Shown piece by piece: positions 9,875 through 39,210 of a stretch of DNA of 64,000 nucleotides (its first letter is position 1; each line of letters begins with the position of its first letter). Under the pieces are notes generated by a model. It saw only the letters and a program-made list of their open reading frames with translations, was not told the origin of the DNA and ran no database searches. Position numbers and translations under genes: made by a program. The stretch is from Pseudomonadota bacterium (GTDB lineage: Bacteria; Pseudomonadota; Alphaproteobacteria; Puniceispirillales; Marisalimonadaceae), in contig JAOESH010000008.1 in assembly GCA_028382005.1 (NCBI GenBank), positions 1 through 64,000 of the forward strand, given 5' to 3'.

Positions 9875-11085
9875 CTTACCTTTTTTATTTCTGAATTTAC
9901 TGAAAAAGGCTCTTCTTTAACAGTGATTGTGAGAAGAAACGCAATAATGCCCAATCCTACGCTTAACCACCACATGTTTTCATAACTACCATAAATATCA
10001 AAAAACCTCCCACCTAACCAAGCTCCTAATACAGCCCCCAGTTGATGGCAAATGAAGCAAATACCAGATAATGTGGCCAAATATTTTGGCCCAATAAAAG
10101 ATAATATGATTGCGTTAGTCATTGGAACTGTTGCTAACCACAAAATGCCAATGACAGCTCCAAATAACAAAGCAATAAATGGTGATGGGGGTGAGAGAAC
10201 AAATATTGTGATTGTAAGAGCTCTCAATAAATAAATTATTGACAAGGGCATTGGTTTTTTAACTTTACCACCTAGCCATCCAAATCCTAAAGTTCCAATT
10301 ATATTAGTTACCCCAATAATTGCTAGTGACCATCCAGCTATTTCTGCCGAAATACCTTTAGAGATTAGGTCTGCAGGAAGGTGTAACGCAATAAAAGTAA
10401 CGTGAAATCCACATACAAAAAAACCAGAAATTAATAATATGTAATTTTTATCTTTCAGAGAAAACATAATGGTCTTTTGTAAGCTGTTTTCGAGATCTTG
10501 AGTATTATTGTTATTTTCATTTGTATTATTGAGGAGTGGCAAAAGAAGTAATAGGCATATTGAAATTGAAGATAAAACAATTAAACTTGTTTCCCAACCA
10601 AACTCCTTATTCATCCACATAGTAGGAAGTACAATAGCAAATTGTCCAAATGAAGCTGCTGCAGCTACTAGGCCCATTGCAAGAGAACGTTTATTAACCG
10701 GAGCTACCTTGCCTGCTATGCTTACCATAGTTGCCATTCCAGCGCCACCAAGGCCAAATCCCATAAGAGTTGTAGCAGAAAACAAAACGAATTCAGAAGT
10801 CGGATTGCTCATCAGGAAAATACCTGATGAATACGAAATAATCCCAAATGCAAGAACTTTTTGAGGTCCCCACTTGTCTATAAGAATTCCTAAGAAAAAT
10901 GTAACAAGACCCCAAATAATTGCTTGAACACCTATTGCAAATGAAAAGAATTCTTTCCCACTTTTCATGAAGCTAGTAATTGGATCTAAGAATAAACCTA
11001 GAGATTGTCTAACGCCCATAATCATAACGATTATGATTGAGCAAACAAGAATTACAACTTGCCAATCAACTTTCTTAGTCTCCAT
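9871..11085 (-). CDS. MFS transporter (MCT/OFA-like)
   Basis: About 12 TM; GLFLDPITS..., GWSLAIIGVTNIIGTLGFGWLGGKV, GAVLGAWLGGRFFDIYGSYENMWW. Confidence 0.87.
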   Translation of the reverse strand: METKKVDWQVVILVCSIIIVMIMGVRQSLGLFLDPITSFMKSGKEFFSFAIGVQAIIWGLVTFFLGILIDKWGPQKVLAFGIISYSSGIFLMSNPTSEFVLFSATTLMGFGLGGAGMATMVSIAGKVAPVNKRSLAMGLVAAAASFGQFAIVLPTMWMNKEFGWETSLIVLSSISICLLLLLPLLNNTNENNNNTQDLENSLQKTIMFSLKDKNYILLISGFFVCGFHVTFIALHLPADLISKGISAEIAGWSLAIIGVTNIIGTLGFGWLGGKVKKPMPLSIIYLLRALTITIFVLSPPSPFIALLFGAVIGILWLATVPMTNAIILSFIGPKYLATLSGICFICHQLGAVLGAWLGGRFFDIYGSYENMWWLSVGLGIIAFLLTITVKEEPFSVNSEIKKVS

Positions 11086-11105
11086 TTTAATTCCCCTTTT
11101 AGTAG

Positions 11106-11522
11106 TTAAAAATTTAATTTACTAATCTTTTTCATGAATAAATCAAATTGATTTTTATTATTTAATCCAAAGGCATTTAGAAATTTCTGTTGACTTTTTT
11201 CCCAGATAACTTTTGCATCATTTAGTTTTTTTGTTCCATTAACAGTAAGGCTTATAACTTTTATTTTATTTACATCATTTTTTTTATAATAAATAAGATC
11301 TATTTTTTTTAACTTATCCAAATTTCTTAACACAGTTGTTCTTTCAAGATCTAGTTTTCTTGATAATTCATGTACTGTTGGATTACCTAAATCCTGTATA
11401 TTTTTTAATGTACTGTATTGTGTAATTTTAATGTCAAGAGAAGATAATTCATGATCATATAATTTTGAAATATGATTAGCTGCCTTTCTGAGGGATATGC
11501 AAATACAAGAAATATCATTCAT
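11106..11522 (-). CDS. MarR-family transcriptional regulator
   Basis: LRKAANHISKLYDHELSSLDIKITQYSTL..., HELSRKLDLERTTVLRNLDKL wHTH; adjacent to MFS gene. Confidence 0.87.
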   Translation of the reverse strand: MNDISCICISLRKAANHISKLYDHELSSLDIKITQYSTLKNIQDLGNPTVHELSRKLDLERTTVLRNLDKLKKIDLIYYKKNDVNKIKVISLTVNGTKKLNDAKVIWEKSQQKFLNAFGLNNKNQFDLFMKKISKLNF

Positions 11523-11571
11523 ATTTTGTGTATATACACATATTCAACAAATGTCAATTTCAATGCTTCAG

Positions 11572-12033
11572 TTATCCTCTACCTCTGTAATTATCAACAT
11601 TATGAATAGGTATAAATAAATGCTTAGGTTGTTCATTTGTTTGCCAAAATATATCGATAGGAATTCCACCTCTTGGATACCAATAACCACCAATTCTTAA
11701 CCATTTAGGAGACAATAAATCAACAATATCTTGAGCAATTGAAATTGTACAATCTTCATGAAACGCACCATGGTTTCTATATCCTAAAAGATATAATTTA
11801 AAAGATTTACTCTCTACAATAAATTTATTAGGAACGTAGTCTATCACAATATGAGCAAAATCAGGTTGGGCAGTAACTGGACAGATTGAAGTAAATTCTG
11901 GACATGTAAGCCTTATAGCATAATCAACACCAATTTTAGGATTTGTAACTTTTTCAAGAATATTGTTGTCAGGAAATTCTGGAACTTTACTTTTATAGCC
12001 AAGAGCATTTAAGTCTTTAGTTGATTTACTCAT
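11572..12033 (-). CDS. queF: NADPH-dependent 7-cyano-7-deazaguanine reductase
   Basis: [29 protein letters not shown]...[22 protein letters not shown]; QueF signature. Confidence 0.97.
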
Positions 12034-12046
12034 GAAAATATCTCAC

Positions 12047-12958
12047 TTAATGATTGATGTTCATTAACTCATTATTAGTAGAATTAATTTTAGTCAATAT
12101 TATATTTTGCCACTCTTCAATATTCTTGACTAAATAAGATTCTTCTGGAAAAGCAATACTTCTGGAGGCGTTTATTAAGCCAAAGTTTTGAAGGTCTAGT
12201 TTTTTAGTATCTGGAATTAATGGAGCACATGCATCCTCTGCTGAAGCACCTTGTGTTCCATAACCAGGAATTAAAAATGGAGCACTTGGTAAGATTTTTC
12301 TTAATGCTAAAGCTTCTTCTTTAAATGTAGCGCCAGACACGATACCTATTGATGATAATCCAGAAGTCCCTTTATGTTTTTCTACAATAGGTTTTAATAT
12401 GTTAGCAAGATGTTCATAGCATTTAATGCCAATTGTAAGAGGCATTTCTTGAATATCTTTAGATCCTTTATTACTTGTATGAGCTAAAATAAATAACCCA
12501 CTACCTGTTTCAGAAGCTTTTTTAAAGAAAGGTTCGAGGCTATCGATGCCTAACCAAGGATTAACAGTCAGAGCATCACTTGGAAAAGGAGCGTTTTTTC
12601 CTAAATAAGCGTTTGCGTATGCTTGGCTAGTACTTCCTATGTCACCTCTTTTTGCATCCATAATTACTAAAAAACCTTTGGATTGAGCGTGTTTACATAA
12701 AGATGAAAGTAGTTTCATACCATCTGGGCCTAGTTGTTCAAATAAAGCAATTTGCGGTTTAATCGCTGGCACAAGTTCATAAGCAGTATCTAAAAGTGAA
12801 AAACAAAACTTCTCAACCGTTTTAATATTATTTGTAGAGGTGCGTTCTTTATTGAAAATTTTAGGAATCATGTTTAGGTGTGGATCAATACCTAAGCATA
12901 AAAAAGATTTAGTACTTCTAATTTTTTTAAAAAGCCTGTCTCCAAAATGCTCAACCAT
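12047..12958 (-). CDS. pyrF: Orotidine 5'-phosphate decarboxylase
   Basis: FLCLGIDPHL, VIMDAKRGDIGSTSQAYA, FLIPGYGTQGAS; long-form OMPdecase. Confidence 0.95.
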   Translation of the reverse strand: MVEHFGDRLFKKIRSTKSFLCLGIDPHLNMIPKIFNKERTSTNNIKTVEKFCFSLLDTAYELVPAIKPQIALFEQLGPDGMKLLSSLCKHAQSKGFLVIMDAKRGDIGSTSQAYANAYLGKNAPFPSDALTVNPWLGIDSLEPFFKKASETGSGLFILAHTSNKGSKDIQEMPLTIGIKCYEHLANILKPIVEKHKGTSGLSSIGIVSGATFKEEALALRKILPSAPFLIPGYGTQGASAEDACAPLIPDTKKLDLQNFGLINASRSIAFPEESYLVKNIEEWQNIILTKINSTNNELMNINH

Positions 12959-18766: not shown

Positions 18767-19438
18767 ATGAATATGGATGGAGTTAAAGTATGTATTTTTG
18801 ACGCATACGGAACGTTATTTGACGTAAATGCAGCATGTAGGGAACTTTCTAAAGAGGTTGGAGAACAATGGCAGGAATTAGCAACGCTATGGAGACTGAG
18901 ACAGGTGGAATATACATGGCTAAGAAACTCTATGAATGAATACATAAACTTTTGGAATATCACAGAAGATGCGTTGGAATATGCAATGGAAACTTTAAAA
19001 ATGAAAAATGAAGAATTGAAAAATAAGTTGTTAGATTTATATCTAAAATTAGAAGCATACCCGGAGGTAGAAAAAGTTTTAATACAATTAAAAAAAGAAG
19101 GTTACCAAACAGGCATTTTATCAAATGGTAGTGAAGAAATGCTTGCTAGTGCGGTTAAAAATGCAAAATTAGAAAATTTGTTAGATAAAGTTTTATCTGT
19201 AGAAAAATGTAAAGTATATAAACCATCTAGTAAAGTATATGACCTTGTAGAAAAAGAGTTTAAAATTAATAAAATTAACTGTGCTTTTTTCTCAAGTAAT
19301 GCATGGGACATGCATGCTGCAGCACATTATGGTTTTAAAACAATATGGGTAAATAGATTTGAAGGTAACTTAGAAAAGTTACCAGGCAAGCCTTACAAAA
19401 TAGTACAAACACTAGAAAAAATTGTAGACATATTATAA
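18767..19438 (+). CDS. Haloacid dehalogenase, type II (L-2-haloacid dehalogenase-like)
   Basis: FDAYGTLFDVNAA (nucleophile Asp), LWRLRQVEYTWLRN (Arg), GILSNGS, YKPSSKVYDL (Lys), FFSSNAWDMHAAAHYGF. Confidence 0.88.
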   Translation: MNMDGVKVCIFDAYGTLFDVNAACRELSKEVGEQWQELATLWRLRQVEYTWLRNSMNEYINFWNITEDALEYAMETLKMKNEELKNKLLDLYLKLEAYPEVEKVLIQLKKEGYQTGILSNGSEEMLASAVKNAKLENLLDKVLSVEKCKVYKPSSKVYDLVEKEFKINKINCAFFSSNAWDMHAAAHYGFKTIWVNRFEGNLEKLPGKPYKIVQTLEKIVDIL

Positions 19439-19442
19439 AATA

Positions 19443-20642
19443 TTATAGGTCATGTCCTATGCCCCAATGCCAAAAATCAGATTTATGATTATTAAAAAAT
19501 CTATTAATTATCATTTGGTGGACTTCAGTAGCTCCATCAACTAACTTGGCCTGTCTAGCATATCTATAAATCCATTCTAAAATTGTATCTTTGCTGTAGC
19601 CTCTTGCCCCATTCAATTGTATGGCAGTATCACAAACATTATTTAAAGTTTCAGCAACTTGTATCTTAGCCATAGAAACATCTTGTCTTGCTTTACTACC
19701 ATTCTCAATCTTCCAAGCAGCTCGCATTACAAGAAGACGACTTATATCTATATCCATTGCAGCTTTGCCGAGTTTAATTTGAATAGATTCTCTATCAGCT
19801 AATTTAATCCCAAAACCTTCTCTGTGAGATACATATTCTAGAGCAATCTCTAGACTTCTTTTAGAAAGCCCTATCCATCGCATACAATGTGTAAGTCGAG
19901 CTAAACCTAGACGAATTTGAACGATTTTTAGGCCCTGACCAACTTCTCCTAATCTATTCTCATCAGGAATTTCAAGACCTTTATATTCAATTTCACAATG
20001 GCCACCATGTTCTTCAGGACCCATAATTGGGATACGACGTTTTATATTCCAACCTGGTTGATCTTTATGATAAAGAAAAGCCGTTAGACCGTCTTTAGTA
20101 TTTGCTAAAAGAATAAAATGTGATGCAACACCAGCTCCAGTAATATACCATTTTAAGCCATTAACTATCCATTTATTATTACTGTAAACAGCTTCAGTTT
20201 TAATCATTGATGGGTCAGATCCACCACCAGGTGCAGGCTCAGTCATTGCAAGTGCTGACCTAACATCACCGTTTATGATAGGATCAAGCCATTTAACCTT
20301 TTGTTCATTAGAAGCTATTTTATTTAATATGTACATATTACCATCATCAGGAGCTGCACAATTAAAGCAAACAGGACCAAAAATAGATCTATTCATTTCT
20401 TCGTATAAAACAGCCATACCGATGGGGCCTAAACCTAAACCAGATCTATCTATAGGCATTTGAGGAGCCCATAGACCAGACGCTTTAACTTGTTTCCTAA
20501 TATTATCGAGAAGAGTTTGATTTATGTTTTCATGATCGTCATAAGATGACTTTTCAGACTCAAGAGGTATAATAATGCCATTAACAAAATCTCTAGTTTT
20601 AATTCTTAGTTGTTCAATTTCGTTAGATAATTTATATTCCAT
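19443..20642 (-). CDS. ACAD10/ACAD11-like acyl-CoA dehydrogenase
   Basis: SALAMTEPAPGGGSDPSMIKT, WYITGAGVASHFILLANT, and LVDGATEVHQM in place of the usual YEGTxE motif, like the ADGPDEVH motif of ACAD10/11. Confidence 0.88.
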   Translation of the reverse strand: MEYKLSNEIEQLRIKTRDFVNGIIIPLESEKSSYDDHENINQTLLDNIRKQVKASGLWAPQMPIDRSGLGLGPIGMAVLYEEMNRSIFGPVCFNCAAPDDGNMYILNKIASNEQKVKWLDPIINGDVRSALAMTEPAPGGGSDPSMIKTEAVYSNNKWIVNGLKWYITGAGVASHFILLANTKDGLTAFLYHKDQPGWNIKRRIPIMGPEEHGGHCEIEYKGLEIPDENRLGEVGQGLKIVQIRLGLARLTHCMRWIGLSKRSLEIALEYVSHREGFGIKLADRESIQIKLGKAAMDIDISRLLVMRAAWKIENGSKARQDVSMAKIQVAETLNNVCDTAIQLNGARGYSKDTILEWIYRYARQAKLVDGATEVHQMIINRFFNNHKSDFWHWGIGHDL

Positions 20643-20662
20643 TACAATTCCTTTGAAAAAAT

Positions 20663-21409
20663 CTACAAACCTGCACTCAATCCTCCATCAATTGAAATAA
20701 TTGAACCTGTCATATATGAATTTTTTTTATTCAATAACATAGAAATTAATAAATCAAGTTCATTTATATCGGCAAACCTACGTAGTGGGATTTTCTTTTT
20801 AAGCATTTCACCAGCTTCACCCTCAAGCTGATGACGATTAATATCAGTTATAATATAGCCTGGAGCAATGGCATTTACGCATATATTGTATCTCGCTAAC
20901 TCAATAGACTGTGATTTAGTAACTTGAATTAATGCTGCCTTTGTAGCTGCATAAGCACCAACATATGATAGTGGTCTATGACCTAAAGCAGACGCTATAT
21001 TTATTATCCTTCCACATTTATTTTGAATCATGGTAGGGATAACAGCTCTAGAAATATTCAAAGAACCAATTAAATTAGTATTAACAATCTGATTAATATC
21101 TTCATATGTTTCTTCATGTAATAATTTAGTATTCGCAATTCCAGCATTATTAATTAAGCCATATATTTCAATATTTTTTAGCTTTTCTTGAACTTGATTC
21201 TCGTCTGTAATATCTAAGACTAAATAATCATGATCTAATTGTGAATTAGGTAATTCAGAAATAACTTTATTTAAGTCATCCTCACTTCTTCCAACTCCAA
21301 TAATGCGGAAGCCATCTTTTGCTAAAACTTTTGCAAAGTTGGATCCAAGTCCTTTTGAAGCACCAGTAATTAATATAGAATTAAAATCAATATTTTTCAT
21401 TTTATACAT
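20663..21409 (-). CDS. Short-chain dehydrogenase/reductase
   Basis: ILITGASKGLGSNFAKVLAKDG, INNAGIA, Ser/Tyr/Lys (YVGAYAATKAAL), GYIITDIN, TGSIISIDGG. Confidence 0.93.
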   Translation of the reverse strand: MYKMKNIDFNSILITGASKGLGSNFAKVLAKDGFRIIGVGRSEDDLNKVISELPNSQLDHDYLVLDITDENQVQEKLKNIEIYGLINNAGIANTKLLHEETYEDINQIVNTNLIGSLNISRAVIPTMIQNKCGRIINIASALGHRPLSYVGAYAATKAALIQVTKSQSIELARYNICVNAIAPGYIITDINRHQLEGEAGEMLKKKIPLRRFADINELDLLISMLLNKKNSYMTGSIISIDGGLSAGL

Positions 21410-21421
21410 CCAGATTGAAAT

Positions 21422-21435
21422 GTAATATATATTAC
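21422..21435. promoter_or_regulatory. Perfect 14-bp palindrome GTAATATATATTAC in the divergent SDR/APH-kinase promoter region
   Basis: Read directly from sequence; 82-bp intergenic region between divergent genes. Confidence 0.4.
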
Positions 21436-21491
21436 GTAATTATTATGTATAAAGTTAAATATGAAATAAGCAAAAGAGTAATTTATAAAAT

Positions 21492-22532
21492 ATGATAGAA
21501 AAACAAAATATAAAAAATTTAGGTTTATGGTTAAAACAAAATACACTTTTACAAATTGAAATTATGTCATTAGTTAAATTTGAAACAGGTCAATCCAATC
21601 CAACATTTATAATAAAATCAGATAAAAAGAATTATGTTCTAAGATCAAAACCAAAGGGAACTCTTTTGAAAGGAGCTCACCGTATTGATAGAGAATATAA
21701 AGTTATGAATTCATTAAAAAATTCTCAAATACCTGTGCCTAAAATGTATTGTTATTGTAAGGATGTTGAGGTTATTGGAAGTGAATTTTATATAATGGAA
21801 TTTTTAGAGGGCAGTCATGAAGTTGATCCATTTTTGAAACATTTTAATAATTTGGAAAAAGAGAAAATATATGATCATAAAATTAATATATTAAGTGAAT
21901 TAGCCTCGGTAGATATTAAAAAGTTAGGACTAGAAGAATTTGGCAGGCCAATAGGTTATTTAGAGAGACAAACTAATTTATGGATTTCACAATATAGAGC
22001 ATCACAAACAAAAGAGATAGAAAGTATGGAGTTTTTAATAGAAAATATTCCAAAATTTATTCCAGAAGAAATAGACATTCTCCCCCCTAGTTTGCTTCAT
22101 GGTGATTTTCGTTTAGATAATATGATTTTAAAAAAAGACAAAACATTAAACAAAGTAGCTGGATTATTAGATTGGGAACTATCAACATTAGCCCCTCCAT
22201 TTATTGATTTATCCTATTGGGCAGTAATGCTTAGATTTAAAAAAGAATGGCCAATTGGAGGATTAGGTAATAATGGAAATTTAATACAAAATTCAGGTAT
22301 TCCTTCAGAAGACATGATTTTAGAGAAATATTTGAATAGAACTGGGTTAGAGAAACCTAAATATTGGAAATATTTATTAGCTTTTAACAGTTTTAGGTTT
22401 GCAGGTATACTTCAGGGTATAGCTAAAAGGTTAATTGATGGAAATAATGCAGCAGTGAATGCTTATCAAGTAGGAGAACAAGCAGAACCAGTTGCTAAAT
22501 TAGGAGCCGAATTGCTTAAGGAGTATTTATGA
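21492..22532 (+). CDS. APH-fold phosphotransferase of the ACAD10/11 N-terminal (LvaA-like) type
   Basis: FETGQSNPTFIIKSDKKNYVLRSKPKGTLLKGAHRIDREYKVMNSL, YIMEFLEG, LLHGDFRLDNMILKKD, GLLDWELSTLAPPFIDLSYW. Confidence 0.9.
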   Translation: MIEKQNIKNLGLWLKQNTLLQIEIMSLVKFETGQSNPTFIIKSDKKNYVLRSKPKGTLLKGAHRIDREYKVMNSLKNSQIPVPKMYCYCKDVEVIGSEFYIMEFLEGSHEVDPFLKHFNNLEKEKIYDHKINILSELASVDIKKLGLEEFGRPIGYLERQTNLWISQYRASQTKEIESMEFLIENIPKFIPEEIDILPPSLLHGDFRLDNMILKKDKTLNKVAGLLDWELSTLAPPFIDLSYWAVMLRFKKEWPIGGLGNNGNLIQNSGIPSEDMILEKYLNRTGLEKPKYWKYLLAFNSFRFAGILQGIAKRLIDGNNAAVNAYQVGEQAEPVAKLGAELLKEYL

Positions 22533-23706
22533 ATTTAGTAGAGCTAAATCTATTAGGGTGTATCATCAAAATCGCGGCAAATAAGAGTGATATAGAGGAA
22601 ATAGTAAGAGCAACGTCATAAGAAGAAAATGAGTCTATTATTATACCTCCAAAATAAGGGCCTACCATTTGACCTATACTAAATGATGAAGTAAGAATTG
22701 CAGTTGAAATTATGATTGAACCTTTATATCTTGATTGGCCTTCTAAGAAGGCAAGTGCTGTAATAGGAATAAAAGTTCCACCTAATAATATTGCAGCAAA
22801 GATAATTCCTAATTGATGATCTACAATAACAGGCATTAAAATACCAATTCCCATAATTAAACAGGCTAAGAACAAAGCTAGATCATTTCCAATTTTTTTG
22901 CCCAACCAAGGCCAAAAAATGACCATTGGAATACCTGCAAGACCTACCAACAACCAAACGTAAGTTTCGGTAGATTCCAACCCTGGAGTATCCCTTGCCA
23001 TTGTTGATATAAATGTCCCAAGTACAACATAGCCAAAACCGTAAAGGCCATAAGAAAAAGTAATTAGATTAAATCCTAATCTAGTTGATGTATTGAATTT
23101 TTTATCAGTTTCATTTGTAACAACAGGATTTGGTGTGAATATAAAGACAGGAATAGCAAGCAATAATGCTAAAATAGTAACCCCTAACCATAAATCACTC
23201 CATACAAACCCTAAACTTCCTAAAAAAGACACTAAGATTGAAGATAATAAAATTCCAAATCCCACACCCATAAAATGTGCTGTGCTTAGAGAACTTTTAC
23301 CTAAAGCCTGAATAGAAGGAAGAATTAAAGATGTTCCAAAAATTAATACAAAAGCACTAGATAAACCTGCAAAAAATCTAATTATAATAAAGAGGAATAT
23401 GTCTTCACAAAACGCCATAAATATTGTCGTTAATAATGATATAATTATAGAAATAAAAAAAACAAATTTAATTTTTTTTTTAAATATTGATAAGATCGAA
23501 ATTAATGATCCAAATAAGTAACCAAAAAAATTCCACGAAGCTATTAAACCACCATTTGTTTTGCTTAAGCTTAACTCTTCTAACATATATGGTAAAATAG
23601 GTGTATAACTAAATCTTCCAATTCCGATAGCAATTGCTAAAGCTGCAGCACCTGTCAAAATTAAAACTATTATATTTGATTTATATTTTTCTAATAAAAT
23701 TATCAT
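22516..23706 (-). CDS. YbfB/YjiJ-like MFS transporter
   Basis: ALAIAIGIGRFSYTPILPYMLEELSLS..., polytopic; overlaps the convergent gene 21492-22532 by 17 bp. Confidence 0.87.
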   Translation of the reverse strand: MIILLEKYKSNIIVLILTGAAALAIAIGIGRFSYTPILPYMLEELSLSKTNGGLIASWNFFGYLFGSLISILSIFKKKIKFVFFISIIISLLTTIFMAFCEDIFLFIIIRFFAGLSSAFVLIFGTSLILPSIQALGKSSLSTAHFMGVGFGILLSSILVSFLGSLGFVWSDLWLGVTILALLLAIPVFIFTPNPVVTNETDKKFNTSTRLGFNLITFSYGLYGFGYVVLGTFISTMARDTPGLESTETYVWLLVGLAGIPMVIFWPWLGKKIGNDLALFLACLIMGIGILMPVIVDHQLGIIFAAILLGGTFIPITALAFLEGQSRYKGSIIISTAILTSSFSIGQMVGPYFGGIIIDSFSSYDVALTISSISLLFAAILMIHPNRFSSTKFINTP

Positions 23707-23853
23707 TCTGGGATTTATTCAACTAAAAATATACTATATGCTTGATTATAGCATTAAATAATTGAAAAGCTTAAAAACATTATCAATTGACTGGCTAAGA
23801 AAAATTATTTCTAATGAAATTAGTAAATATGATAGAAAGTTGGGATCATAAAA

Positions 23854-24633
23854 ATGCAAAATTTATTCAAAGTTTCTAATGTTACTAAGCATATTGTCAA
23901 AATAGAGTTATGTAATGGTAGGAAACATAATCCTTTATCCTTAGGTCTGATGAAGGATTTGACTAGCTCTTTAAAAGAAGTATCTACAAGACCAAATGTT
24001 AGAGTTTTAATTATTTCTTCAGAAGGACCTGGCTTTTCAGCTGGACATGATTTGGAAGAATTAAGGCGAAATAAAAATGATAAAGATTTTTTTAAAAGCT
24101 TATTTAACGAATGTTCTAATTTGATGCAGACAATTATGAACCTTTCCCAACCAGTAATTGCTGAAGTTTGTGGTATTGCAGCAGCTGCTGGTTGTCAATT
24201 AGTGGCTAGTTGTGATTTAGCTGTTGCTTCAGAGCAGGCAAGCTTTATGACGCCTGGCGTTAATATAGGATTGTTTTGTTCGACACCTATGGTTGCAGTC
24301 TCAAGAAATATGAGTAGAAAGAAAACAATGGAAATGCTTTTAACTGGTGAAAAAATCAGTGCTATAGAAGCTGTAGATTTTGGCTTAATTAATCATTGTG
24401 TTTCTTTTGAAAAACTTGAAAATAAAACAATGGATCTTGCCAATTTAATTGTTTCAAAACCTCTTTCAACAATTAAAATTGGAAAGGAAGCTTTTTATAA
24501 ACAAGCAGAGATGCCAATCTCAGAGGCTTATAATTTTACCTCTGAAGTAATGGCAATGAATATGTTAGAAATCGATGCTCACGAAGGAATTACTGCGTTC
24601 TTAGATAAAAGAACTCCATTATGGCAAGAATAA
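23854..24633 (+). CDS. Enoyl-CoA hydratase/isomerase family (ECHDC3-like)
   Basis: VRVLIISSEGPGFSAGHDLEEL, AAAGCQLVASCDLAVASEQASFMTPGVNIGLFCSTP. Confidence 0.92.
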   Translation: MQNLFKVSNVTKHIVKIELCNGRKHNPLSLGLMKDLTSSLKEVSTRPNVRVLIISSEGPGFSAGHDLEELRRNKNDKDFFKSLFNECSNLMQTIMNLSQPVIAEVCGIAAAAGCQLVASCDLAVASEQASFMTPGVNIGLFCSTPMVAVSRNMSRKKTMEMLLTGEKISAIEAVDFGLINHCVSFEKLENKTMDLANLIVSKPLSTIKIGKEAFYKQAEMPISEAYNFTSEVMAMNMLEIDAHEGITAFLDKRTPLWQE

Positions 24634-24640
24634 TCATTAT

Positions 24641-26368
24641 ATGAATATTTCAGAACGTGATAATCAAAACAAAATAGATCTAAGTCCTAAAGATGGAATA
24701 TCTTATGTTAGAGGTTCTTCTAAACCGAACCTAATTTATTCAACTATATCACAACTTTTGAAGAATGCTGTTTCTCAATATGGATCAAGGGACGCTTTAA
24801 TTTTTCCAAATCTTAAGTTGAGCTATGAAGACTTTGACCGTGCTGTTGATGCCTTGGCAATTGGTTTTTTAGCTCTTGGATTAGAAAAGGGTGATAGATT
24901 GGGTATTTGGTCCCCTAATCGTTTAGAATGGGTGTTAACTCAATTTGCAACCGCTCGTATTGGTGTAGTACTAGTTAATATTAATCCTGCTTACCAACTT
25001 TCAGAATTGGAATATTCTTTAAATAAAGTTGGTTGTAAAGCCTTGGTCTTAGCAAAGAACTTTAAAAGTTCTGAGTATGTCAAAATGATTCATACCTTGG
25101 CTCCAGAAATATATAAATGTCTCCCAGGAGAACTAAAGTCTTCAAGGTTACCCAACCTCAAACATGTGGTTGTTATGGACGCTGTTGAAAACTTGAATGG
25201 ATTATGGTCATTTGAAAACATTACCAATTTAGGAGGGGATACAGAGAAACTAAAACTTATTGAAATAGATAAGAATTTAACCCCTGATGATCCAATTAAT
25301 ATCCAGTTTACTTCTGGAACAACGGGGAAGCCTAAAGGTGCAACTTTATCCCATTACAATATTGTCAACAATGCAAATCTAATTACAGACAGAATAAATC
25401 TTACTGAAATAGATCGCTTAGCAGTACCTGTCCCGCTTTACCACTGTTTTGGGATGGTAATGGGTGTCCTTGGGGCGGTGAGTAAAGGTGCCGCAATGGT
25501 ATTCCCTGGGGAATCGTTTGATCCTAAGATAACATTAGATGCGCTCGATAAAGAAAAATGTACTGCTCTTTATGGAGTTCCAACAATGTTTGTAGCAATG
25601 CTTCAAGAACTAGATAAGACACCAAGAGATTTATCTAGGTTACGCACAGGAATTATGGCTGGTGCACTTTGCCCAATAGAAGTAATGAAAAAAGTAAACA
25701 CTCAAATGAATATGAGTGAAGTTACAATCTGTTATGGTATGACTGAAACTGCTCCTGTTTCTTTTCAAAGTTTTATTGACGACCCAATAGACAAACGCTG
25801 TGAAACTGTTGGTCGAGTTCATCCTCACCTAGAAGTAAAAATAGTAGATAAACTTGGCCAAATTGTTTCTATTGGGACACCAGGTGAACTTTGTACTCGA
25901 GGCTATTCAGTTATGAAAGGCTACTGGAATGACAATGATATGACTAATGATGCAATTCATGATGGATGGATGCATACTGGTGATCTTGGCATGTTTAATG
26001 AAGAAGGTTTTTGTACTATAACAGGTCGCCTGAAAGATATAATCATACGAGGTGGTGAAAATATTTACCCACGTGAAATCGAAAATTTTTTATTTTTACA
26101 CCCAAATGTAATAGAGGTACAGGTATTTGGAGTGCCAGATATAAAAATGGGCGAAGAAGTGTGTGCGTGGATAATCCCAGAAGTGGGATATAATTTTGAA
26201 CAAAATGAATTAGTAGAGTTTTGTAAAGGAAAAATAGCCCATTTTAAAATACCTAAATATTTTAAGTTTGTTAATGAGTTACCAATGACTATTACTGGAA
26301 AGCCTCAAAAATTTATCATGAGAGATAAAATGATTGAGATGCTTAATACAAAAACACCTATTAATTGA
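24641..26368 (+). CDS. AMP-binding acyl-CoA ligase (ACSF2-like)
   Basis: INIQFTSGTTGKPKGATLSHYNIVNNA, YGMTETAPVSFQ, GWMHTGDLGMFNEEGFCTITGRLKDIIIRGGENIYP. Confidence 0.93.
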   Translation: MNISERDNQNKIDLSPKDGISYVRGSSKPNLIYSTISQLLKNAVSQYGSRDALIFPNLKLSYEDFDRAVDALAIGFLALGLEKGDRLGIWSPNRLEWVLTQFATARIGVVLVNINPAYQLSELEYSLNKVGCKALVLAKNFKSSEYVKMIHTLAPEIYKCLPGELKSSRLPNLKHVVVMDAVENLNGLWSFENITNLGGDTEKLKLIEIDKNLTPDDPINIQFTSGTTGKPKGATLSHYNIVNNANLITDRINLTEIDRLAVPVPLYHCFGMVMGVLGAVSKGAAMVFPGESFDPKITLDALDKEKCTALYGVPTMFVAMLQELDKTPRDLSRLRTGIMAGALCPIEVMKKVNTQMNMSEVTICYGMTETAPVSFQSFIDDPIDKRCETVGRVHPHLEVKIVDKLGQIVSIGTPGELCTRGYSVMKGYWNDNDMTNDAIHDGWMHTGDLGMFNEEGFCTITGRLKDIIIRGGENIYPREIENFLFLHPNVIEVQVFGVPDIKMGEEVCAWIIPEVGYNFEQNELVEFCKGKIAHFKIPKYFKFVNELPMTITGKPQKFIMRDKMIEMLNTKTPIN

Positions 26369-26842: not shown

Positions 26843-27204
26843 TTGTTCGCATCCTTTCTTATTGCAATATCAGCTTTTAGTTCGTGTGGTGCGAGAGGAT
26901 CAATAAAAGGGTTACGATAAAGTTTATCGTGGCTTTCTACACCAACCTCAAAGGTACAGTCAGTTTTTGCATGTGCAACGCATAAAATGACATAACCGTC
27001 ATTTATCTGTCGGTTATTAAGGGCAACTTGAGCACGTTGGTCAACCTCGCCTTCTATCAACTTTGCTGCACATGTTATGCATCCTCCATATTGACACCCA
27101 TATGGTAAATCAAGACCCTGTGAACGTAATTCTAAAAGTAGAGGCTTATTACCTTTAACTTTATAAAAATCATTTCCACGATTTGCGATTGTAATCTTTG
27201 TCAT
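26839..27204 (-). CDS. 2Fe-2S plant-type ferredoxin
   Basis: LDLPYGCQYGGCITCAAKLIEGEV...VILCVAHAKTDC; start refined from 27255 to ATG 27204, giving an ATGA overlap with the SBP56 stop. Confidence 0.92.
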   Translation of the reverse strand: MTKITIANRGNDFYKVKGNKPLLLELRSQGLDLPYGCQYGGCITCAAKLIEGEVDQRAQVALNNRQINDGYVILCVAHAKTDCTFEVGVESHDKLYRNPFIDPLAPHELKADIAIRKDANK

Positions 27205-28556
27205 AACCATATATCGCTTGTGCAATCTCCACCTGGATAACGGCTTTCGTGACATCGACTTGGTCCATTAGGCTCTTTTCCAAAATCAATAATGAAATCT
27301 TTATTAATTTTCATACCTCCATTTTTAACATCACAATCAATCATAAGCATGGCTCCTCCTTGCGTGCGCATATCCGGATAGAACTGGTTATCCCAAGTTG
27401 AGAAAAGAGATGTTGTTACATACATGCGCTTACCATCTAATGATAATTGATACATTTGTGGACCACCTGTAATATTCACACCATTTATAACTGGTGCTTT
27501 ACCTAAAAGGCCACCCATCCATACCTGACCAGTCATCACAGGTTTATGAGGATCAGAAATATCATATTGTCGCATATCGCCATGAAGCCAGTTGTTTATG
27601 TATAGATATTTATCATCCATTGAAACTAAAATAGCCGACATCACTCCAGGTATAGGAATAGGCCAATCAGGATGTGGTTCGTTATCAACGTCAATAATCT
27701 TTTCCCATTCCCATTTTTCTTCTTTAGATTTCCAAAAATGTATAACATTACTGCTAAGAGCTGCTCCACAAAAACCGTGACTGCTATCGGGATCATGCAA
27801 AAACTTAACTTCTAGCGGCACTAATCCATCCTCACCTAAATACATTGTTTCAACAGGTTTTTTCTTTGCAAAATCCCAAATATGTAATCGACGACCATAT
27901 TTTAAATGTCCTACTTCTTCAAGATCAAATCCTGGCATAAAAGTATTTGGTGCCGCCCATTCTGAACTCACCATCACATTATGGCGTGGCTGATACCAAA
28001 AATCATAACTAAAAGGAATATCGCCCATTGAGTTTTCCCAGCGACCAACTATTTCAAAATCCTTATTGAGATGTAAATAACCTCCTGGAGCTTCTCCTTT
28101 TGCATCACCAAGGAAAGAAATAATAATTTCAGATCCTAGACAATGAACTGTGTGAGGTCCTGAAAGGTTTGTTTTTGATTTAATTTCAGCCCCATCAACT
28201 GTTTTATACAAGCTTGGCGAAAAAGGATCAGTTGCAGTATCGACCACATAAATATTATTAGATCGAACACCTGGAACTAGCAGGTATCCTCGACTCATTT
28301 TGTTATCACCATGACAAGAGGAACATGCGTTCCAACCCATATGGTGCAACTCATCTCCAATTCCAGGCATTTCAAGTCTATTGATAACCTTCGAATATGT
28401 AGAGCTTTCTGGATCTAAATCAATAGTTGCTAGATAATCAGGTTTTTGTATTCCGGTACCAGTATAGATTGCTATAGTATATAATATTTTTTCTCTAGGA
28501 GCTTTGATAGCCTCAGAAGGACTAGAATAACCTGGGCCACAACAAAATCCATCCAT
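27201..28556 (-). CDS. Selenium-binding protein 56 family / methanethiol oxidase
   Basis: CCGPGYSSPSEAIKAPREKILY, PDYLATIDLDP, DELHHMGWNACSSCHGD, YDFWYQPRHNVMVSSEWAAPN, NWLHGDMRQYDISDP, GGPQMYQLSLDGKRMYVTTSLFSTWDNQFYP, ESRYPGGDCTSDIWL; closely parallels human SELENBP1. Confidence 0.96.
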   Translation of the reverse strand: MDGFCCGPGYSSPSEAIKAPREKILYTIAIYTGTGIQKPDYLATIDLDPESSTYSKVINRLEMPGIGDELHHMGWNACSSCHGDNKMSRGYLLVPGVRSNNIYVVDTATDPFSPSLYKTVDGAEIKSKTNLSGPHTVHCLGSEIIISFLGDAKGEAPGGYLHLNKDFEIVGRWENSMGDIPFSYDFWYQPRHNVMVSSEWAAPNTFMPGFDLEEVGHLKYGRRLHIWDFAKKKPVETMYLGEDGLVPLEVKFLHDPDSSHGFCGAALSSNVIHFWKSKEEKWEWEKIIDVDNEPHPDWPIPIPGVMSAILVSMDDKYLYINNWLHGDMRQYDISDPHKPVMTGQVWMGGLLGKAPVINGVNITGGPQMYQLSLDGKRMYVTTSLFSTWDNQFYPDMRTQGGAMLMIDCDVKNGGMKINKDFIIDFGKEPNGPSRCHESRYPGGDCTSDIWL

Positions 28557-28732: not shown

Positions 28733-30538
28733 TTATATAGTTGATAAAGCTCCATCTAAGTCAGAAATAATGTCCTTATAACTTTCTAATCCAATTGATA
28801 AACGGATAATAGAATCGCTAATCTCAGATTTTTCTTTTTGCTCGATAGTTAACTGTCTATGTGTTGTTGATGCTGGATGAACAATTAATGATCTTGTATC
28901 ACCTACATTTGCAAGATGAGAAATTAAATTACAGTTTTCTACTAATTTTATAGCACCTTCATATCCGCTAGTTACTGAAAATGTAAAAACTGAACCAAAA
29001 CCATTTTTAAAATACTTTTTTGCTAATTCATGATAAATATTTTCTTTAAAACCAGCCCAGGATACGTGATTTACCTTTGGATGGCTTTTAAGAAAGTTAG
29101 CCACTATCTTAGCATTTTTCATGTGTTGCTTCATTCTTAATGGAAGGGTTTCTAAACCAGTTAATGTTAAATATGCATTTAGTGGAGCCATTGTTGCTCC
29201 TAAGTCCCTCAATACGCATGCGTGACAGTAATTGATAAAGGCATGACTTCCAAAACTTTCGTAAAAATTAATTTCGTTATAGGAAGAATTAGGCAAAGTT
29301 AGTTTTGAATAATCTCTACCTTTATCCCAAGGGAATTTTCCCATATCTACAACCGCACCACCCATAGCGTTTCCATGTCCTGAAAGAAACTTTGTTGTTG
29401 AGTAAATAATTAAGTCTGCACCAAATTTTCCTGGTTGACATAAAATTTGTGTTGCCATTGTATTATCAATTACAAGTGGAATGCCAGCTTCGTGTGCAAT
29501 TTCAGCTAAAGATGAAATATCAGTAATATTTCCATCTGGGTTTGCTAAACTTTCAGCAAATAAAACTCTAACAGAATTATCCTGAACAGCAGACTGTACA
29601 GCATTCAAATCAGATATATCAACTAACTCAGCATCCCAGGAAAAATTTTTAAATGTTTTTGTAAACTGAGTAATTGAACCACCATATAATTTAGAGCTAG
29701 CCACTATTTTTGTACCAGGCTCCATTAATGGAAATAGTGCTAACATTTGTGCAGCATGTCCAGATGCAGCGCAACAAGCTCCTAATCCATTATCTAAGGC
29801 TGCAATTCTTTGTTCTAAAGCAGATATCGTAGGGTTAGATAATCGCCCATAAATATTACCAGGTTCTTGAAGGTTAAATAAACTTGCAGCATGGTCTGTA
29901 TCATCAAATATAAAAGAGGTTGTTTGATAAATTGGTACGCTTCTAGATCCAGTTGCTGGATCAGGTCTTGTCCCAGCGTGAATAGCTAGAGTTTCTAATT
30001 CATTTGATTTTACAAATCCACCATTTCTGGATGCAAGAGGTGGTATTTTTATATTTGGTCTCTTTGAAGAAATTAAGTTTGAATTAAAGCCAGCTAATCC
30101 AAGCGTACCAGATAATTTTGAATGCTCCATTTTAGGACATTTATCATAAATCACATTTATATTTGCTTTTTTACCTAATCTAATAGCTTCTTCATTTTTA
30201 ATACCCAACTGCATCCAAACAGTTTTAGCCCCGATTCTTATTGCATCTTTAGTTATCAAAAGACAAAATTTGCTAGGTCTAAATATATTAACCATATCTA
30301 TTTTAAACGGGACTTCCTCAAGGGATGCGTAGCATAATTCATTAAGTATATATTGTCCTGCGTTCCCAGGGTTAATAGGTACGACTTTGTACGCATGTTT
30401 TTGGAGGTACTTCATAACAAAATTGGAAGGTCGTTTCCAATTTTTACTAGCTCCAACCATGGCAATAGTTTTGTTTTTAGATAAAATATCTGCGATAAAA
30501 AGATCTTCATCATCTTTTAGATTATTTATTTTGGACAT
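28733..30538 (-). CDS. Fusion: N-terminal CoA-binding domain + C-terminal O-acetylhomoserine sulfhydrylase (MetY-type PLP enzyme)
   Basis: N-term KTIAMVGASKNWKRPSNFVMKYLQKHAYKVVPINP...VIYDKCPKME; C-term LETLAIHAGTRPDPATGSRSVPIYQTTSFIFDD...LIIYSTTKFLSGHG...LSIGLESYKDI. Confidence 0.93.
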   Translation of the reverse strand: MSKINNLKDDEDLFIADILSKNKTIAMVGASKNWKRPSNFVMKYLQKHAYKVVPINPGNAGQYILNELCYASLEEVPFKIDMVNIFRPSKFCLLITKDAIRIGAKTVWMQLGIKNEEAIRLGKKANINVIYDKCPKMEHSKLSGTLGLAGFNSNLISSKRPNIKIPPLASRNGGFVKSNELETLAIHAGTRPDPATGSRSVPIYQTTSFIFDDTDHAASLFNLQEPGNIYGRLSNPTISALEQRIAALDNGLGACCAASGHAAQMLALFPLMEPGTKIVASSKLYGGSITQFTKTFKNFSWDAELVDISDLNAVQSAVQDNSVRVLFAESLANPDGNITDISSLAEIAHEAGIPLVIDNTMATQILCQPGKFGADLIIYSTTKFLSGHGNAMGGAVVDMGKFPWDKGRDYSKLTLPNSSYNEINFYESFGSHAFINYCHACVLRDLGATMAPLNAYLTLTGLETLPLRMKQHMKNAKIVANFLKSHPKVNHVSWAGFKENIYHELAKKYFKNGFGSVFTFSVTSGYEGAIKLVENCNLISHLANVGDTRSLIVHPASTTHRQLTIEQKEKSEISDSIIRLSIGLESYKDIISDLDGALSTI

Positions 30539-32317: not shown

Positions 32318-33472
32318 ATGAGGTATCAGATGAATTTTGAATATAACCAAGACCAATTAGCAATTCAAGAAATGGCAAAAAATTTTGCTGAGACTGAGTT
32401 TGCACCTTATGCATCTGAATGGGATCAGAATGAAATTTTTCCAGTTGAAACTTTAAAAAAAGCGGCTGAACTAGGTTTAGCAGCAATATATGTAAATGAA
32501 AAATATGGTGGGTCTGGACTGAGTCGGCTAGATGCAGCAATTATTTTTGAAGAGTTATCTAGAGGATGTGTTTCAACTGCAGCTTATCTATCTATACATA
32601 ATATGGTTACTTGGATGATTGATTCCCATGGTTCAGAAAGTATTAAAGAAAAATTCATAAAAAGATTATCCACTATGGAAATAATGTCTAGTTATTGTTT
32701 GACTGAAGCGGGTTCTGGTTCAGATGCTGCAGCTATGAAAACTTCAGCGTCAAGAAAAGGAAATAGTCACTATGTTTTGAATGGATCTAAGAGCTTTATC
32801 TCTGGAGGACCAACAAGTGATGTTTTTGCTGTTATGTGCAGAACAAGTGAAGATGGTGCAAATGGCGTTTCATGCTTATTGATAGAAAAAGAAACTAAAG
32901 GTTTATCTTTTGGTAAACAAGAAAAGAAAATGGGATGGAATAGCCAACATACCTCTACAGTGAATTTTGATAATTGTGAAATTCCAATTGATAATATTGT
33001 TGGAAATGAAGGTGACGGGTTTAAAATTGCTATGAAAGGTCTTGATGGTGGACGAGTAAATATTGCTGCCTGTTCATTAGGTGGAGCTAGAGCCGCTTTA
33101 GACGCATCATTAAGTTATGCGGCTGATAGAAAACAGTTTGGAAAGTCAATTGACCAATTTCAAGCAACTCAATTTAAATTAGCAGATATGGCGACAGAAT
33201 TAGAAGCTTCAAGGTTAATGGTATTAAGAGCAGCCGCTAGTCTTGATTTAAAAGATATTCAAGCAACAAAATATTGTGCAATGGCAAAACGTTTTGCTAC
33301 TGACATATGTTCTGATATATGTAACGAGGCACTTCAGATACACGGTGGATATGGATATTTAAAAGATTTTCCGCTCGAAAGACTTGTAAGAGATTTAAGA
33401 GTTCATCAGATACTTGAGGGTACTAACGAAATAATGAGAGTAATAATCTCAAGAAAGTTAAAAGGTAATTAG
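32318..33472 (+). CDS. Acyl-CoA dehydrogenase (isobutyryl-CoA dehydrogenase-like)
   Basis: SSYCLTEAGSGSDAAAMKTSA, DRKQFGKSIDQFQATQFKLADM, LEGTNEIMRVIISRKL; adjacent to a HIBCH-like gene. ATG at 32330 is an alternative start. Confidence 0.92.
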   Translation: MRYQMNFEYNQDQLAIQEMAKNFAETEFAPYASEWDQNEIFPVETLKKAAELGLAAIYVNEKYGGSGLSRLDAAIIFEELSRGCVSTAAYLSIHNMVTWMIDSHGSESIKEKFIKRLSTMEIMSSYCLTEAGSGSDAAAMKTSASRKGNSHYVLNGSKSFISGGPTSDVFAVMCRTSEDGANGVSCLLIEKETKGLSFGKQEKKMGWNSQHTSTVNFDNCEIPIDNIVGNEGDGFKIAMKGLDGGRVNIAACSLGGARAALDASLSYAADRKQFGKSIDQFQATQFKLADMATELEASRLMVLRAAASLDLKDIQATKYCAMAKRFATDICSDICNEALQIHGGYGYLKDFPLERLVRDLRVHQILEGTNEIMRVIISRKLKGN

Positions 33473-33496
33473 TTTTAATAAAAAGGTATTCAAATA

Positions 33497-34567
33497 ATGT
33501 CAGAAGATGAAGTAATATTTGTTGAAGAAAATGGTGTTGGGATAATAACATTAAATAGACCAGATAGATTAAATGCTCTTACCTATCCGATGGTCCAGAA
33601 AATAAATGAACATTTAAATTCGTGGGAAACAAAAGAAAGTATTAATTGTATAGTTATTGAAGGAGCTGGTGACCGTTCATTTTGTGCGGGAGGTGATGTT
33701 GTTAAATTAAGAAAAGAAGTTCTAGAATTAGGTGGTCCTCCTACTGATTTATCTCGTTCATTTTTTTATGACGAATACACATTAAACTATAAAATATCTA
33801 ACTATAAAAAACCTTTTATTGCTCTTATTAACGGATTCACAATGGGTGGAGGTGTTGGTATTTCAATGCATGGTAGCCATGTAGTTGCATCAGAAAAAAC
33901 AATGTTTGCAATGCCTGAAACGGCCATTGGTTTATTTCCTGATGTTGGAGGCGGTTTTTTATTAGGTCAGCTCGATAGAGGAATTGGTGCTTGGTTAGCC
34001 CTTGTAGGTGCAAAGTTAAAAGCTTATGATTTAGTTCAATTAGGTCTTGCAACGAGTTTTGTTAATTCAAATGAAGTTCATAATCTTAGAAAACGTTTAA
34101 TTGCCAGTTCTCCTAAAAATAATCAAGAAGTATCAAGTGTTATTAATAGTTTTTCTTCTAAGCCAGATTTTGAAGAAAGTTTACTTAAAGATAATGAGAC
34201 AATAATTAAAGAAGTTTTCTCTCATGACACAGTTGAAGAAATTTTTGAAAATTGTAAACAAGCTTCATCTAGTAAATTCATAGAAATGCAATTCGATGAA
34301 TTAAAACATAAATCTCCAACCTCACTCAAAATTTCGTTAAAACAAATTAGAGTAGCCAAAGATATGAGTTTAAAAGATGAGCTTATTATGGAGTATAGAA
34401 TGGTTCAAAACTGCCTTGAAAAAGGTGATTTTTTTGAAGGAGTTCGTGCGATGTTAGTTGACAAGGACAGAAAGCCAAATTGGAAACCTTCAAAAATAGA
34501 AGAAGTAGATAATAACAGGGTTGATAATTTTTTTAAAACTTTAGATGATTTAGATCTAAAATTGTAA
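33497..34567 (+). CDS. 3-hydroxyisobutyryl-CoA hydrolase-like enoyl-CoA hydratase/isomerase protein
   Basis: DRSFCAGGDVVKL, GFTMGGGVGISMHGSHVVASEKTMFAMPETAIGLFPDVGGGFLL. Confidence 0.93.
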   Translation: MSEDEVIFVEENGVGIITLNRPDRLNALTYPMVQKINEHLNSWETKESINCIVIEGAGDRSFCAGGDVVKLRKEVLELGGPPTDLSRSFFYDEYTLNYKISNYKKPFIALINGFTMGGGVGISMHGSHVVASEKTMFAMPETAIGLFPDVGGGFLLGQLDRGIGAWLALVGAKLKAYDLVQLGLATSFVNSNEVHNLRKRLIASSPKNNQEVSSVINSFSSKPDFEESLLKDNETIIKEVFSHDTVEEIFENCKQASSSKFIEMQFDELKHKSPTSLKISLKQIRVAKDMSLKDELIMEYRMVQNCLEKGDFFEGVRAMLVDKDRKPNWKPSKIEEVDNNRVDNFFKTLDDLDLKL

Positions 34568-34607
34568 ATTAAATATGTTAAATAAAGATATTTAGGAGGA
34601 TAACGAA

Positions 34608-35780
34608 ATGAATGATATATTTATAATGTCTGCAAATAGGTCGGCTATTGGAGGTTTTGGAGGAGCTCTAAAAACTTTTTGTCCAGTAGATTTAGGAACT
34701 TTGGTTGCGAAAGAAGCTATTGTAAGATCTGGTTATGATCCAAAAGAAATTGAACATGCTGTTTTTGGAAATGTAATTCACACTGAACCAAGAGATATGT
34801 ATGTAAGTAGGGTTATTGCTCTTCAAGCAGGTTTAAGCAAAGATTCTGCTGCATTAACTGTAAACCGACTTTGTGGTTCTGGTCTTCAAGCAATTATAAG
34901 TGCCATTCAACTTTTAGCTTTAGGAGATGCTTCTATTGTGATGGCTGGTGGTGTAGAAGTCATGTCAAATGGAGCACACATTGTTGAAGGGTTTCGTTGG
35001 GGCGCAAGAATGGGCGATGGGAAAGTTCATGATATGATGCTTGGTGCTCTTCATGATCCATTTGGACATGGGCACATGGGTATTACTGCTGAAAACATAT
35101 CAAGTAGATATCAAATAAGTAGAGATATGCAAGACGAGTTCGCCTTCACAAGTCAAAAAAGAGCAAGCAAGGCGTTAAAAGATGGAGCTTTCAAAAACCA
35201 GATTCTCCCAATAGAAATTAAGACAAGAAAAGGTATTGATGTTTTTGAAAATGATGAACATTTAAAACCAAATACTACTATGGAAAGTTTATCTGGGTTA
35301 AGAACAGCATTTAAAAAAGATGGAGTGGTCACTGCAGGCAATGCCTCAGGAATAAATGACGGTGCATCAGCTTTAATTCTTGCTAATGAGGAAAAGGCTA
35401 AAAAGGGGAACCCGTTGGCTAGAATTATTTCTTATGGTTTTGGAGGAGTTGATCCAGATGAAATGGGAATGGGGCCTGTACCTGCTACCAAAATGGCATT
35501 AAATAAAGCTGGTTTAGGGGTCTCAGATTTAGATTTGGTAGAATCAAATGAAGCTTTTGCTGCTCAGGCTTGTGCAGTAAATAAACAATTAGGTCTTGAT
35601 CCTGAAAAAGTAAATGTTAATGGTGGAGCTATTGCACTCGGTCATCCTGTTGGTGCAACAGGAGCAATTATAATGACAAAGCTTATTTATGAGTTAAGAA
35701 AACGTAATGGTAGGTATGGTCTTGCTACCATGTGTATTGGTGGCGGCCAAGGTATAGCAGTTATTATAGAAGCTTTATAA
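34608..35780 (+). CDS. Acetyl-CoA C-acyltransferase (thiolase)
   Basis: ALTVNRLCGSGLQAII, VESNEAFAAQA, NVNGGAIALGHPVGATGA, ATMCIGGGQGIA. Confidence 0.96.
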   Translation: MNDIFIMSANRSAIGGFGGALKTFCPVDLGTLVAKEAIVRSGYDPKEIEHAVFGNVIHTEPRDMYVSRVIALQAGLSKDSAALTVNRLCGSGLQAIISAIQLLALGDASIVMAGGVEVMSNGAHIVEGFRWGARMGDGKVHDMMLGALHDPFGHGHMGITAENISSRYQISRDMQDEFAFTSQKRASKALKDGAFKNQILPIEIKTRKGIDVFENDEHLKPNTTMESLSGLRTAFKKDGVVTAGNASGINDGASALILANEEKAKKGNPLARIISYGFGGVDPDEMGMGPVPATKMALNKAGLGVSDLDLVESNEAFAAQACAVNKQLGLDPEKVNVNGGAIALGHPVGATGAIIMTKLIYELRKRNGRYGLATMCIGGGQGIAVIIEAL

Positions 35781-36728: not shown

Positions 36729-37181
36729 TTAGACTTTAACTTTAATCATTGAATTAGATATCCAAGTCATAACGACGTCCTCGTTTTGATTAAAAACAGT
36801 TTGTTTTAGTCTAACTGTGCCTTTGATTGGATTTTTAGATGATAATTTTTTTTCTAATACCTCAACCTGTGTTTTGAGTGTATCGCCAGGGTAGACAGGT
36901 TTAGTCCATCTTAATTCATCTAATCCCCAAGCTCCCATGCTAGAACCGTTAAAAACGTTAGTATTAAATATTTGAGTGAAAGATTTCCCTAAAGTCATAA
37001 AGCCACTTGAAGTTAATCGTCCAAAAGGTCCGTTTTTGGCAGCGTCTTCATCTAGGTGAAAAGTTTGTGGATCATATTTTGATGCAAAATCAATAATTTC
37101 ATCTTTAGAAATAAAATTAGGTTCAGTTTCAAAGCAGTCACCTACATGAAAATCATCAAAATATTTTGGTTTTAATTTCAT
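36729..37181 (-). CDS. MaoC-like dehydratase
   Basis: YFDDFHVGDCFETEPNFISKDEIIDFASKYDPQTFHLDEDAAK...GFMTLG hotdog/MaoC. Confidence 0.92.
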   Translation of the reverse strand: MKLKPKYFDDFHVGDCFETEPNFISKDEIIDFASKYDPQTFHLDEDAAKNGPFGRLTSSGFMTLGKSFTQIFNTNVFNGSSMGAWGLDELRWTKPVYPGDTLKTQVEVLEKKLSSKNPIKGTVRLKQTVFNQNEDVVMTWISNSMIKVKV

Positions 37182-37207
37182 TTTTGATCAGGTTTATAAG
37201 AATTAAT

Positions 37208-37957
37208 TTATCTTGGTGCTAATCGGACAGAACCGTCAAGTCTAATTGTTTCACCGTTTAATAGAACATTAGTTAGAATACTTTCAACTAACATTGCATA
37301 CTCTAATGGTGTACCAAGACGTTTAGGAAATATAGTTGTAGCTATTAAACTTTGTTGAACTTCTTCACTCATTCCAGAAAGCATAGCTGTTGCAAACAAA
37401 CCTGGTGCAATTGTATTAACTCTAATACCATTTGAAGCTAACTCACGTGCAATTGGCAAAGTCATTCCTACAATACCACCTTTGGAAGCAGAGTAAGCAG
37501 CTTGTCCAATTTGTCCATCATAAGCCGCTACTGAAGCTGTATTTATAACAACGCCTTTTTCTCCTTCATGATCGGGTTCATTGGTCTGCATTTTATCAGC
37601 GCATAATCGAAGCATATTAAAGGTTCCAATTAAGTTAACTTTAAGGACTTTTTCAAATAAGTTTAAATCATGCATTCCTCTACTAGAAACAACTTTAGCT
37701 CCAACGGCAATGCCTGCGCAATTAACTAAACAGTTAATACCGTCAAACTTAGCTATGGCATTTTTCATTTCTTCTTCATTAGAAACGTCACCGACAAAGT
37801 ATTGAGCGCCAATTTCATCTGCAACACTTTTAAGTCCGTCGGCATTTAAATCTATCAATAAAAGATCAGCTCCTTTTTCTTTCAAGTATCTTGCTGTTCC
37901 TTCTCCAAGGCCACTGCCGGCTCCCGTAATTACTGCTTTAACATTTTTAAGTATCAT
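37208..37957 (-). CDS. SDR, 3-hydroxyacyl-CoA dehydrogenase type 2 (HSD17B10)-like
   Basis: AVITGAGSGLGEGTARYLKEKGADLLLIDLN, VNCAGIA, YDGQIGQAAYSASKGGIVGMTLPIARELA, NTIAPGLFATAM. Confidence 0.93.
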   Translation of the reverse strand: MILKNVKAVITGAGSGLGEGTARYLKEKGADLLLIDLNADGLKSVADEIGAQYFVGDVSNEEEMKNAIAKFDGINCLVNCAGIAVGAKVVSSRGMHDLNLFEKVLKVNLIGTFNMLRLCADKMQTNEPDHEGEKGVVINTASVAAYDGQIGQAAYSASKGGIVGMTLPIARELASNGIRVNTIAPGLFATAMLSGMSEEVQQSLIATTIFPKRLGTPLEYAMLVESILTNVLLNGETIRLDGSVRLAPR

Positions 37958-37959
37958 TT

Positions 37960-39204: not shown

Positions 39205-39210
39205 CTGCTT

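Follow-up and report, generated by a model that had tools for sequence, protein, structure and literature searches.

A predicted split kinase and acyl-CoA dehydrogenase module related to ACAD10/11 and LvaA/LvaC in a SAR116-related alphaproteobacterium

The stretch of DNA analysed here (the window: 64,000 nucleotides, positions 1 to 64,000 of contig JAOESH010000008.1) comes from an alphaproteobacterial genome whose closest named relatives are genomes of the SAR116 cluster, and at 19443-22532 it contains a real, conserved unit composed of an acyl-CoA dehydrogenase (ACAD), a short-chain dehydrogenase/reductase (SDR) and an APH-type kinase. We propose, with a probability of roughly 0.68, that this unit is a split relative of the ACAD10/11 and LvaA/LvaC systems, in which the kinase would phosphorylate a hydroxyacyl-CoA, probably a 4-hydroxy one, and the ACAD would then eliminate the phosphate to give an enoyl-CoA. 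The evidence comes from the constancy of the three genes and their linkage across bacteria, from the active-site residues of the two enzymes, and from the placement of each in trees of its relatives.

Conservation of the ACAD-SDR-kinase unit

The ACAD gene (19443-20642) and the SDR gene (20663-21409; PF00106, 168 bits) lie on the minus strand and the kinase gene (21492-22532; PF01636, 123 bits) on the plus strand, and with a convergent transporter gene beyond them the locus must comprise more than one operon, SDR-ACAD reading leftward and the kinase rightward. The seven open reading frames (ORFs) named in an earlier note on this DNA are all found where it placed them, and their Pfam and NCBIfam families agree. 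The order ACAD-SDR-kinase and the divergent layout are kept at each of the 16 other loci of the genus that were examined, and recur in two genomes of another family of the same order. Within the genus the ACAD is 84-87% identical, the kinase 65-70% and the SDR 67-72%, and these are therefore conserved genes, not chance ORFs. The SDR itself is a generic classical member of its family (motifs TGASKGLG, NNAG and YAATK), and within the module it may act as a ketoacyl-CoA reductase or as a hydroxyacyl-CoA dehydrogenase.

The association extends well beyond the genus. For 62 ACAD relatives, 3.5 kb or more of sequence was available on each side; counting partners within about 3.6 kb, an APH kinase is found near 57, an SDR near 54, an AMP ligase near 32 and a DUF6285 protein near 21. 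Eleven of these loci belong to the window genus, and without them the kinase is still present at 46 of 51; the linkage spans the Alpha-, Beta- and Gammaproteobacteria. Some of the modules are on annotated plasmids, for example in the form SDR-ACAD-kinase-DUF6285 in Paroceanicella and Azospirillum, and in the form SDR-ACAD-ligase-kinase in Sulfitobacter and a Paracoccaceae strain. The SDR and the kinase had been proposed as companions of the ACAD from the window alone, and as regular partners in many bacteria they bear this out. We note also that in Azospirillum sp. B510 (locus L066, 9620-12960) a histidine phosphatase family gene, seemingly split by an IS21 element, comes after the module; the lva genes of P. 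citronellolis likewise have a neighbour of this family (PMC6692424).

These counts bear on the simplest alternative, that the genes are unrelated neighbours, an ordinary FAD-dependent acyl-CoA dehydrogenase that happens to lie next to an APH kinase with another function. In its favour, APH kinases do take many substrates, and the genes are divergently transcribed; against it stand the breadth of the kinase linkage just described, the finding that more than one kinase subfamily serves the ACAD clade, and the conservation of atypical active-site residues. We consider mere adjacency very improbable.

The ACAD and its phosphate-pocket residues

The best structural matches of the ACAD are PDB entries 4hr3, 8v3u and 2wbi, and an AlphaFold model (pLDDT 89) recovers 4hr3 and ACAD11 as its top folds; identity to human ACAD11 (2wbi) is 32%. 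Alignment shows that R244, R249, H252, R255 and the catalytic D369 match R626, R631, H634, R637 and D753 of ACAD11, where R626, H634 and R637 hold the 4-phosphate, R631 serves substrate placement and D753 catalysis (PMC12440821). With C253 and M254, H252 and R255 make up an HCMR sequence, and the phosphate-handling and catalytic residues do not vary across a 27-row alignment. Of 89 ACADs in the window clade, 88 carry the motif R-x4-R-LT-HCMR; a related form, RIHHCMR or RVHHCMR, is present in all 33 of an ACAD11-like set (one duplicate included) and in none of 18 other ACADs. The patterns used for fetching relatives left the HCMR motif out, so its conservation was not built into the sample. Only two of the seven ACADs of the source genome examined for the motif carry it, and both of these lie beside APH kinases.

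In a quick tree the window ACAD falls in a 79-row group (98 SH-aLRT) that is sister to a separate 36-row ACAD11 group (100); given the quick method and the long outgroup branches, the split is more certain than the exact position of the root. LvaC and ACAD10 were not among the rows of this tree, and we place LvaC with the ACAD11 group because of its published identity of 62% to ACAD10 and 56% to ACAD11 (PMC11342911). The description of the window ACAD as an ACAD10/11-type enzyme therefore stands in part: the residues diagnostic of ACAD10/11 and LvaC are present, but the enzyme lies outside the ACAD11 clade, in its sister clade. We predict that it is a phosphate-eliminating, enoyl-CoA-forming enzyme.

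The kinase and its partners

The kinase groups with those of ACAD11 and 3dxp. Its best relatives of solved structure are PDB 3dxp (E value 2.7e-69) and mouse ACAD11 (8v3v; 8.5e-62), and the AlphaFold model (pLDDT 86) returns 3dxp as its top fold with a TM-score of 0.87, far ahead of the rest. D205 and N210, both in the catalytic loop HGDFRLDN, together with R159 align with D220, N225 and R176, which are named among the kinase residues of ACAD11 (PMC12440821). A more careful tree unites the SAR116 kinases in one clade (support 100/100), which lies within a 16-row set (97/98) that also holds ACAD11, 3dxp and kinases near ACAD11-like ACADs. The earlier assignment of this gene as an ACAD10/11-type kinase is upheld by this grouping and by the HGD...DN loop, and a hydroxyacyl-CoA kinase is its predicted role.

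Outside SAR116 the relatives of the window ACAD are mostly paired with a very different APH kinase, often with a DUF6285 gene alongside; two examples of this other type are 19-22% identical to the window kinase. In the quick kinase tree DUF6285 accompanies 26 of 44 rows of the other kinase clade, and is found at none of the 20 loci with a window-type ACAD whose kinases fall on the ACAD11 side, although detection at the threshold used may overlook copies. The similarity and the tree fit, and suggest, a swap of kinase partner in or before SAR116, while approximately unbiased (AU) tests on the kinase groupings leave alternatives possible and do not reject a common clade (p = 0.084 and 0.28).

Predicted chemistry and substrate

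The sequence data support chemistry like that of ACAD10 and ACAD11, without fixing the site of the hydroxyl or the nature of the chain. In the order of steps that we infer, the SDR probably reduces a ketoacyl-CoA to the hydroxyacyl-CoA, or else oxidises a later intermediate; the kinase would phosphorylate the hydroxyl, most likely at C4; and the ACAD, using FAD and its catalytic aspartate, would lose the phosphate to form a 2-enoyl-CoA that could enter beta-oxidation. After the chemistry of ACAD10/11, the elimination would proceed with no external electron acceptor (PMC12440821, PMC11342911). Kinase and ACAD orthologues from B. pseudomallei stood in for the ACAD10 domains in vitro (PMC11342911), and separate bacterial proteins can therefore carry out such reactions. 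With the mammalian ACAD11 and ACAD10 (8v3u, 2wbi; PMC12440821, PMC11342911) the window module shares the kinase subfamily, the catalytic aspartate and the arginine and HCMR residues of the phosphate pocket; it differs in that kinase and ACAD are separate genes and not one fused protein, in the low identity and sister-clade position of the ACAD, and in lacking an HAD of the ACAD10 type.

Several points weigh against a role so close to that of ACAD10/11. An ACAD only 32% identical to ACAD11 is divergent enough that the substrate or the hydroxyl position could have changed, no ligase of the family usual for such modules adjoins the locus, and literature searches on DUF6285 and on the module terms returned nothing on the window ACAD clade and no biochemical data. 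In addition, the same genome encodes a second kinase-ACAD pair, on contig C8 (kinase 10645-11709, ACAD 11734-12936), which resembles the window module in that a kinase adjoins an HCMR-type ACAD. The ACAD of this pair shows 55% identity to human ACAD11 against 33% to its window counterpart, and the C8 kinase, whose closest match is PDB 9o56 (39%), has 29% identity to the kinase of the window. An LvaC/ACAD11-like role would by sequence suit the C8 pair better, which suggests that the window pair does something different.

A difference of this kind could mean that the same phosphorylation and elimination act on a hydroxyl at another position, or on an acyl-CoA with a branched or tertiary alcohol, instead of on 4-hydroxyacyl-CoAs. 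The separate clade of the ACAD and the presence of a more ACAD11-like pair in the genome are both consistent with this, as is a weak resemblance of the kinase model to a 25-hydroxy steroid kinase, an enzyme that prepares a tertiary alcohol for elimination by phosphorylating it (PMC8449060). That Sterolibacterium enzyme likewise uses an APH fold to activate an alcohol for loss of phosphate, but its substrate is different, and in the fold alignment the window kinase is about 15% identical to it and is far nearer to 3dxp and ACAD11. Moreover, the window ACAD keeps every residue with which ACAD11 holds the 4-phosphate. We regard another hydroxyl position or type of alcohol as a plausible but unlikely alternative to the 4-hydroxyacyl-CoA substrate favoured here.

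A broader proposal can be made more tentatively, at somewhat less than even odds: the window clade may be a second widespread proteobacterial family of kinase-coupled, phosphate-eliminating ACADs, with a substrate unlike that of ACAD10/11 and LvaC, in which SAR116 uses an ACAD11-type kinase in place of the kinase-DUF6285 pair of most relatives. Kinase-coupled removal of hydroxyls from acyl-CoAs has been linked to enzymes only recently, in mammals and a few bacteria. If it were also true of the window clade, the route would be more diverse than the ACAD10/11-LvaC clade and would extend to an abundant surface-ocean lineage, and the separate-gene enzymes would offer a means of probing what sets substrate choice.

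Comparison with the lva genes and the question of a ligase

The earlier note had suggested that the locus might serve in levulinate or gamma-valerolactone catabolism, as an equivalent of lvaABCDE that includes the ligase at 24641-26368, the MFS transporter and the hydratase. The enzyme types do agree in outline (SDR, kinase, ACAD and ligase), and the kinase, ACAD and SDR are separate genes in P. putida lvaABCDE as they are here (Rand et al. 2017, described in PMC6692424). The two systems differ in gene order and strands, in the position of the window ACAD outside the clade to which LvaC belongs, and in that the ligase family associated with such modules elsewhere is not represented next to this one.

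The small subunit LvaB, which we take to be a DUF6285 protein, had been noted as missing, and there is indeed no match to PF19802 (DUF6285) in the source genome; this genome is 81% complete in 65 contigs, and incompleteness could explain the absence. In a Pseudomonadales sample searched for DUF6285, no locus with an LvaC-type ACAD could pass as lvaABC. No families like LvaR, LvaF or LvaG (PMC6692424) were found among the annotated neighbouring genes. With no DUF6285 match in the genome and the ACAD outside the clade in which we place LvaC, a levulinate or gamma-valerolactone assignment is not supported.

The ligase that the earlier note proposed also counts against it. The gene at 24641-26368 (plus strand), an ACSF2-like AMP ligase related to PRK12583, is private to the source genome within the genus, with no counterpart in the 36 other members searched, and its one relative at 55% identity is in a genome of another genus of the order; it was possibly acquired, or lost elsewhere. 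Its identity to module-linked ligases of other genomes is 26-30%, and on these two grounds it was rejected as the ligase of the module. Taking these observations together, we judge an lvaABCDE-equivalent locus to be improbable.

The nearest member of the module-linked ligase family in the window is a PRK08162 family acyl-CoA synthetase at 48275-50002 on the plus strand (815 bits against a cut-off of 677). It shares about 40-54% identity with ligases that accompany the module in other genomes, and most members of the genus have a copy 80-90% identical to it. In another SAR116 family the genes that match it best are not the module-linked copies, and for this reason it may be a paralogue.

Other genes at and near the locus

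The locus had been drawn more widely to take in four further genes. The ACAD, SDR and kinase hold as its core; the ligase at 24641-26368 and the HAD protein fall outside the module, and the MFS transporter and hydratase are genus-level neighbours. The HAD gene (18767-19438, plus strand) is a type II L-2-haloacid dehalogenase by TIGR01428 (206 bits against a cut-off of 125) and by its best PDB matches, 2no4 and 1jud, both L-2-haloacid dehalogenases. The HAD of ACAD10 is presumably of the epoxide-hydrolase N-terminal type (TIGR02247), for which the window protein scores 45 bits against a cut-off of 125, and it was rejected as an HAD of that kind. It is kept next to the module throughout the genus, and like the transporter and the hydratase it accompanies the module in the window genus only and not in relatives beyond. 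The transporter (22516-23706, minus strand) is of the YbfB type (MFS_4; PF06779, 255 bits) and is a candidate importer. The enoyl-CoA hydratase (23854-24633, plus strand) belongs to the PRK08139 family (NF006008, 354 bits against a cut-off of 313) and could carry the enoyl-CoA product onward.

Further along the window, 27201-28556 encodes an SBP56 protein (PF05694, 673 bits) related to methanethiol oxidase and scoring far below the MtoX cut-off. It adjoins a CoA-binding protein and a ferredoxin-like ORF, and is near the module in some relatives only (loci L045 and L057). Judged by its translation, the ORF at 28733-30538 has a CoA-binding domain apparently fused to a region like a pyridoxal phosphate enzyme of cysteine and methionine metabolism. 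A compact block of beta-oxidation type at 32318-35780 consists of an ACAD, an ECH_2 protein like hydroxyisobutyryl-CoA hydrolase, and a thiolase, and the region 36729-46344 contains genes of a branched-chain-type ABC transporter together with two AMP-binding enzymes, an SDR and a MaoC protein.

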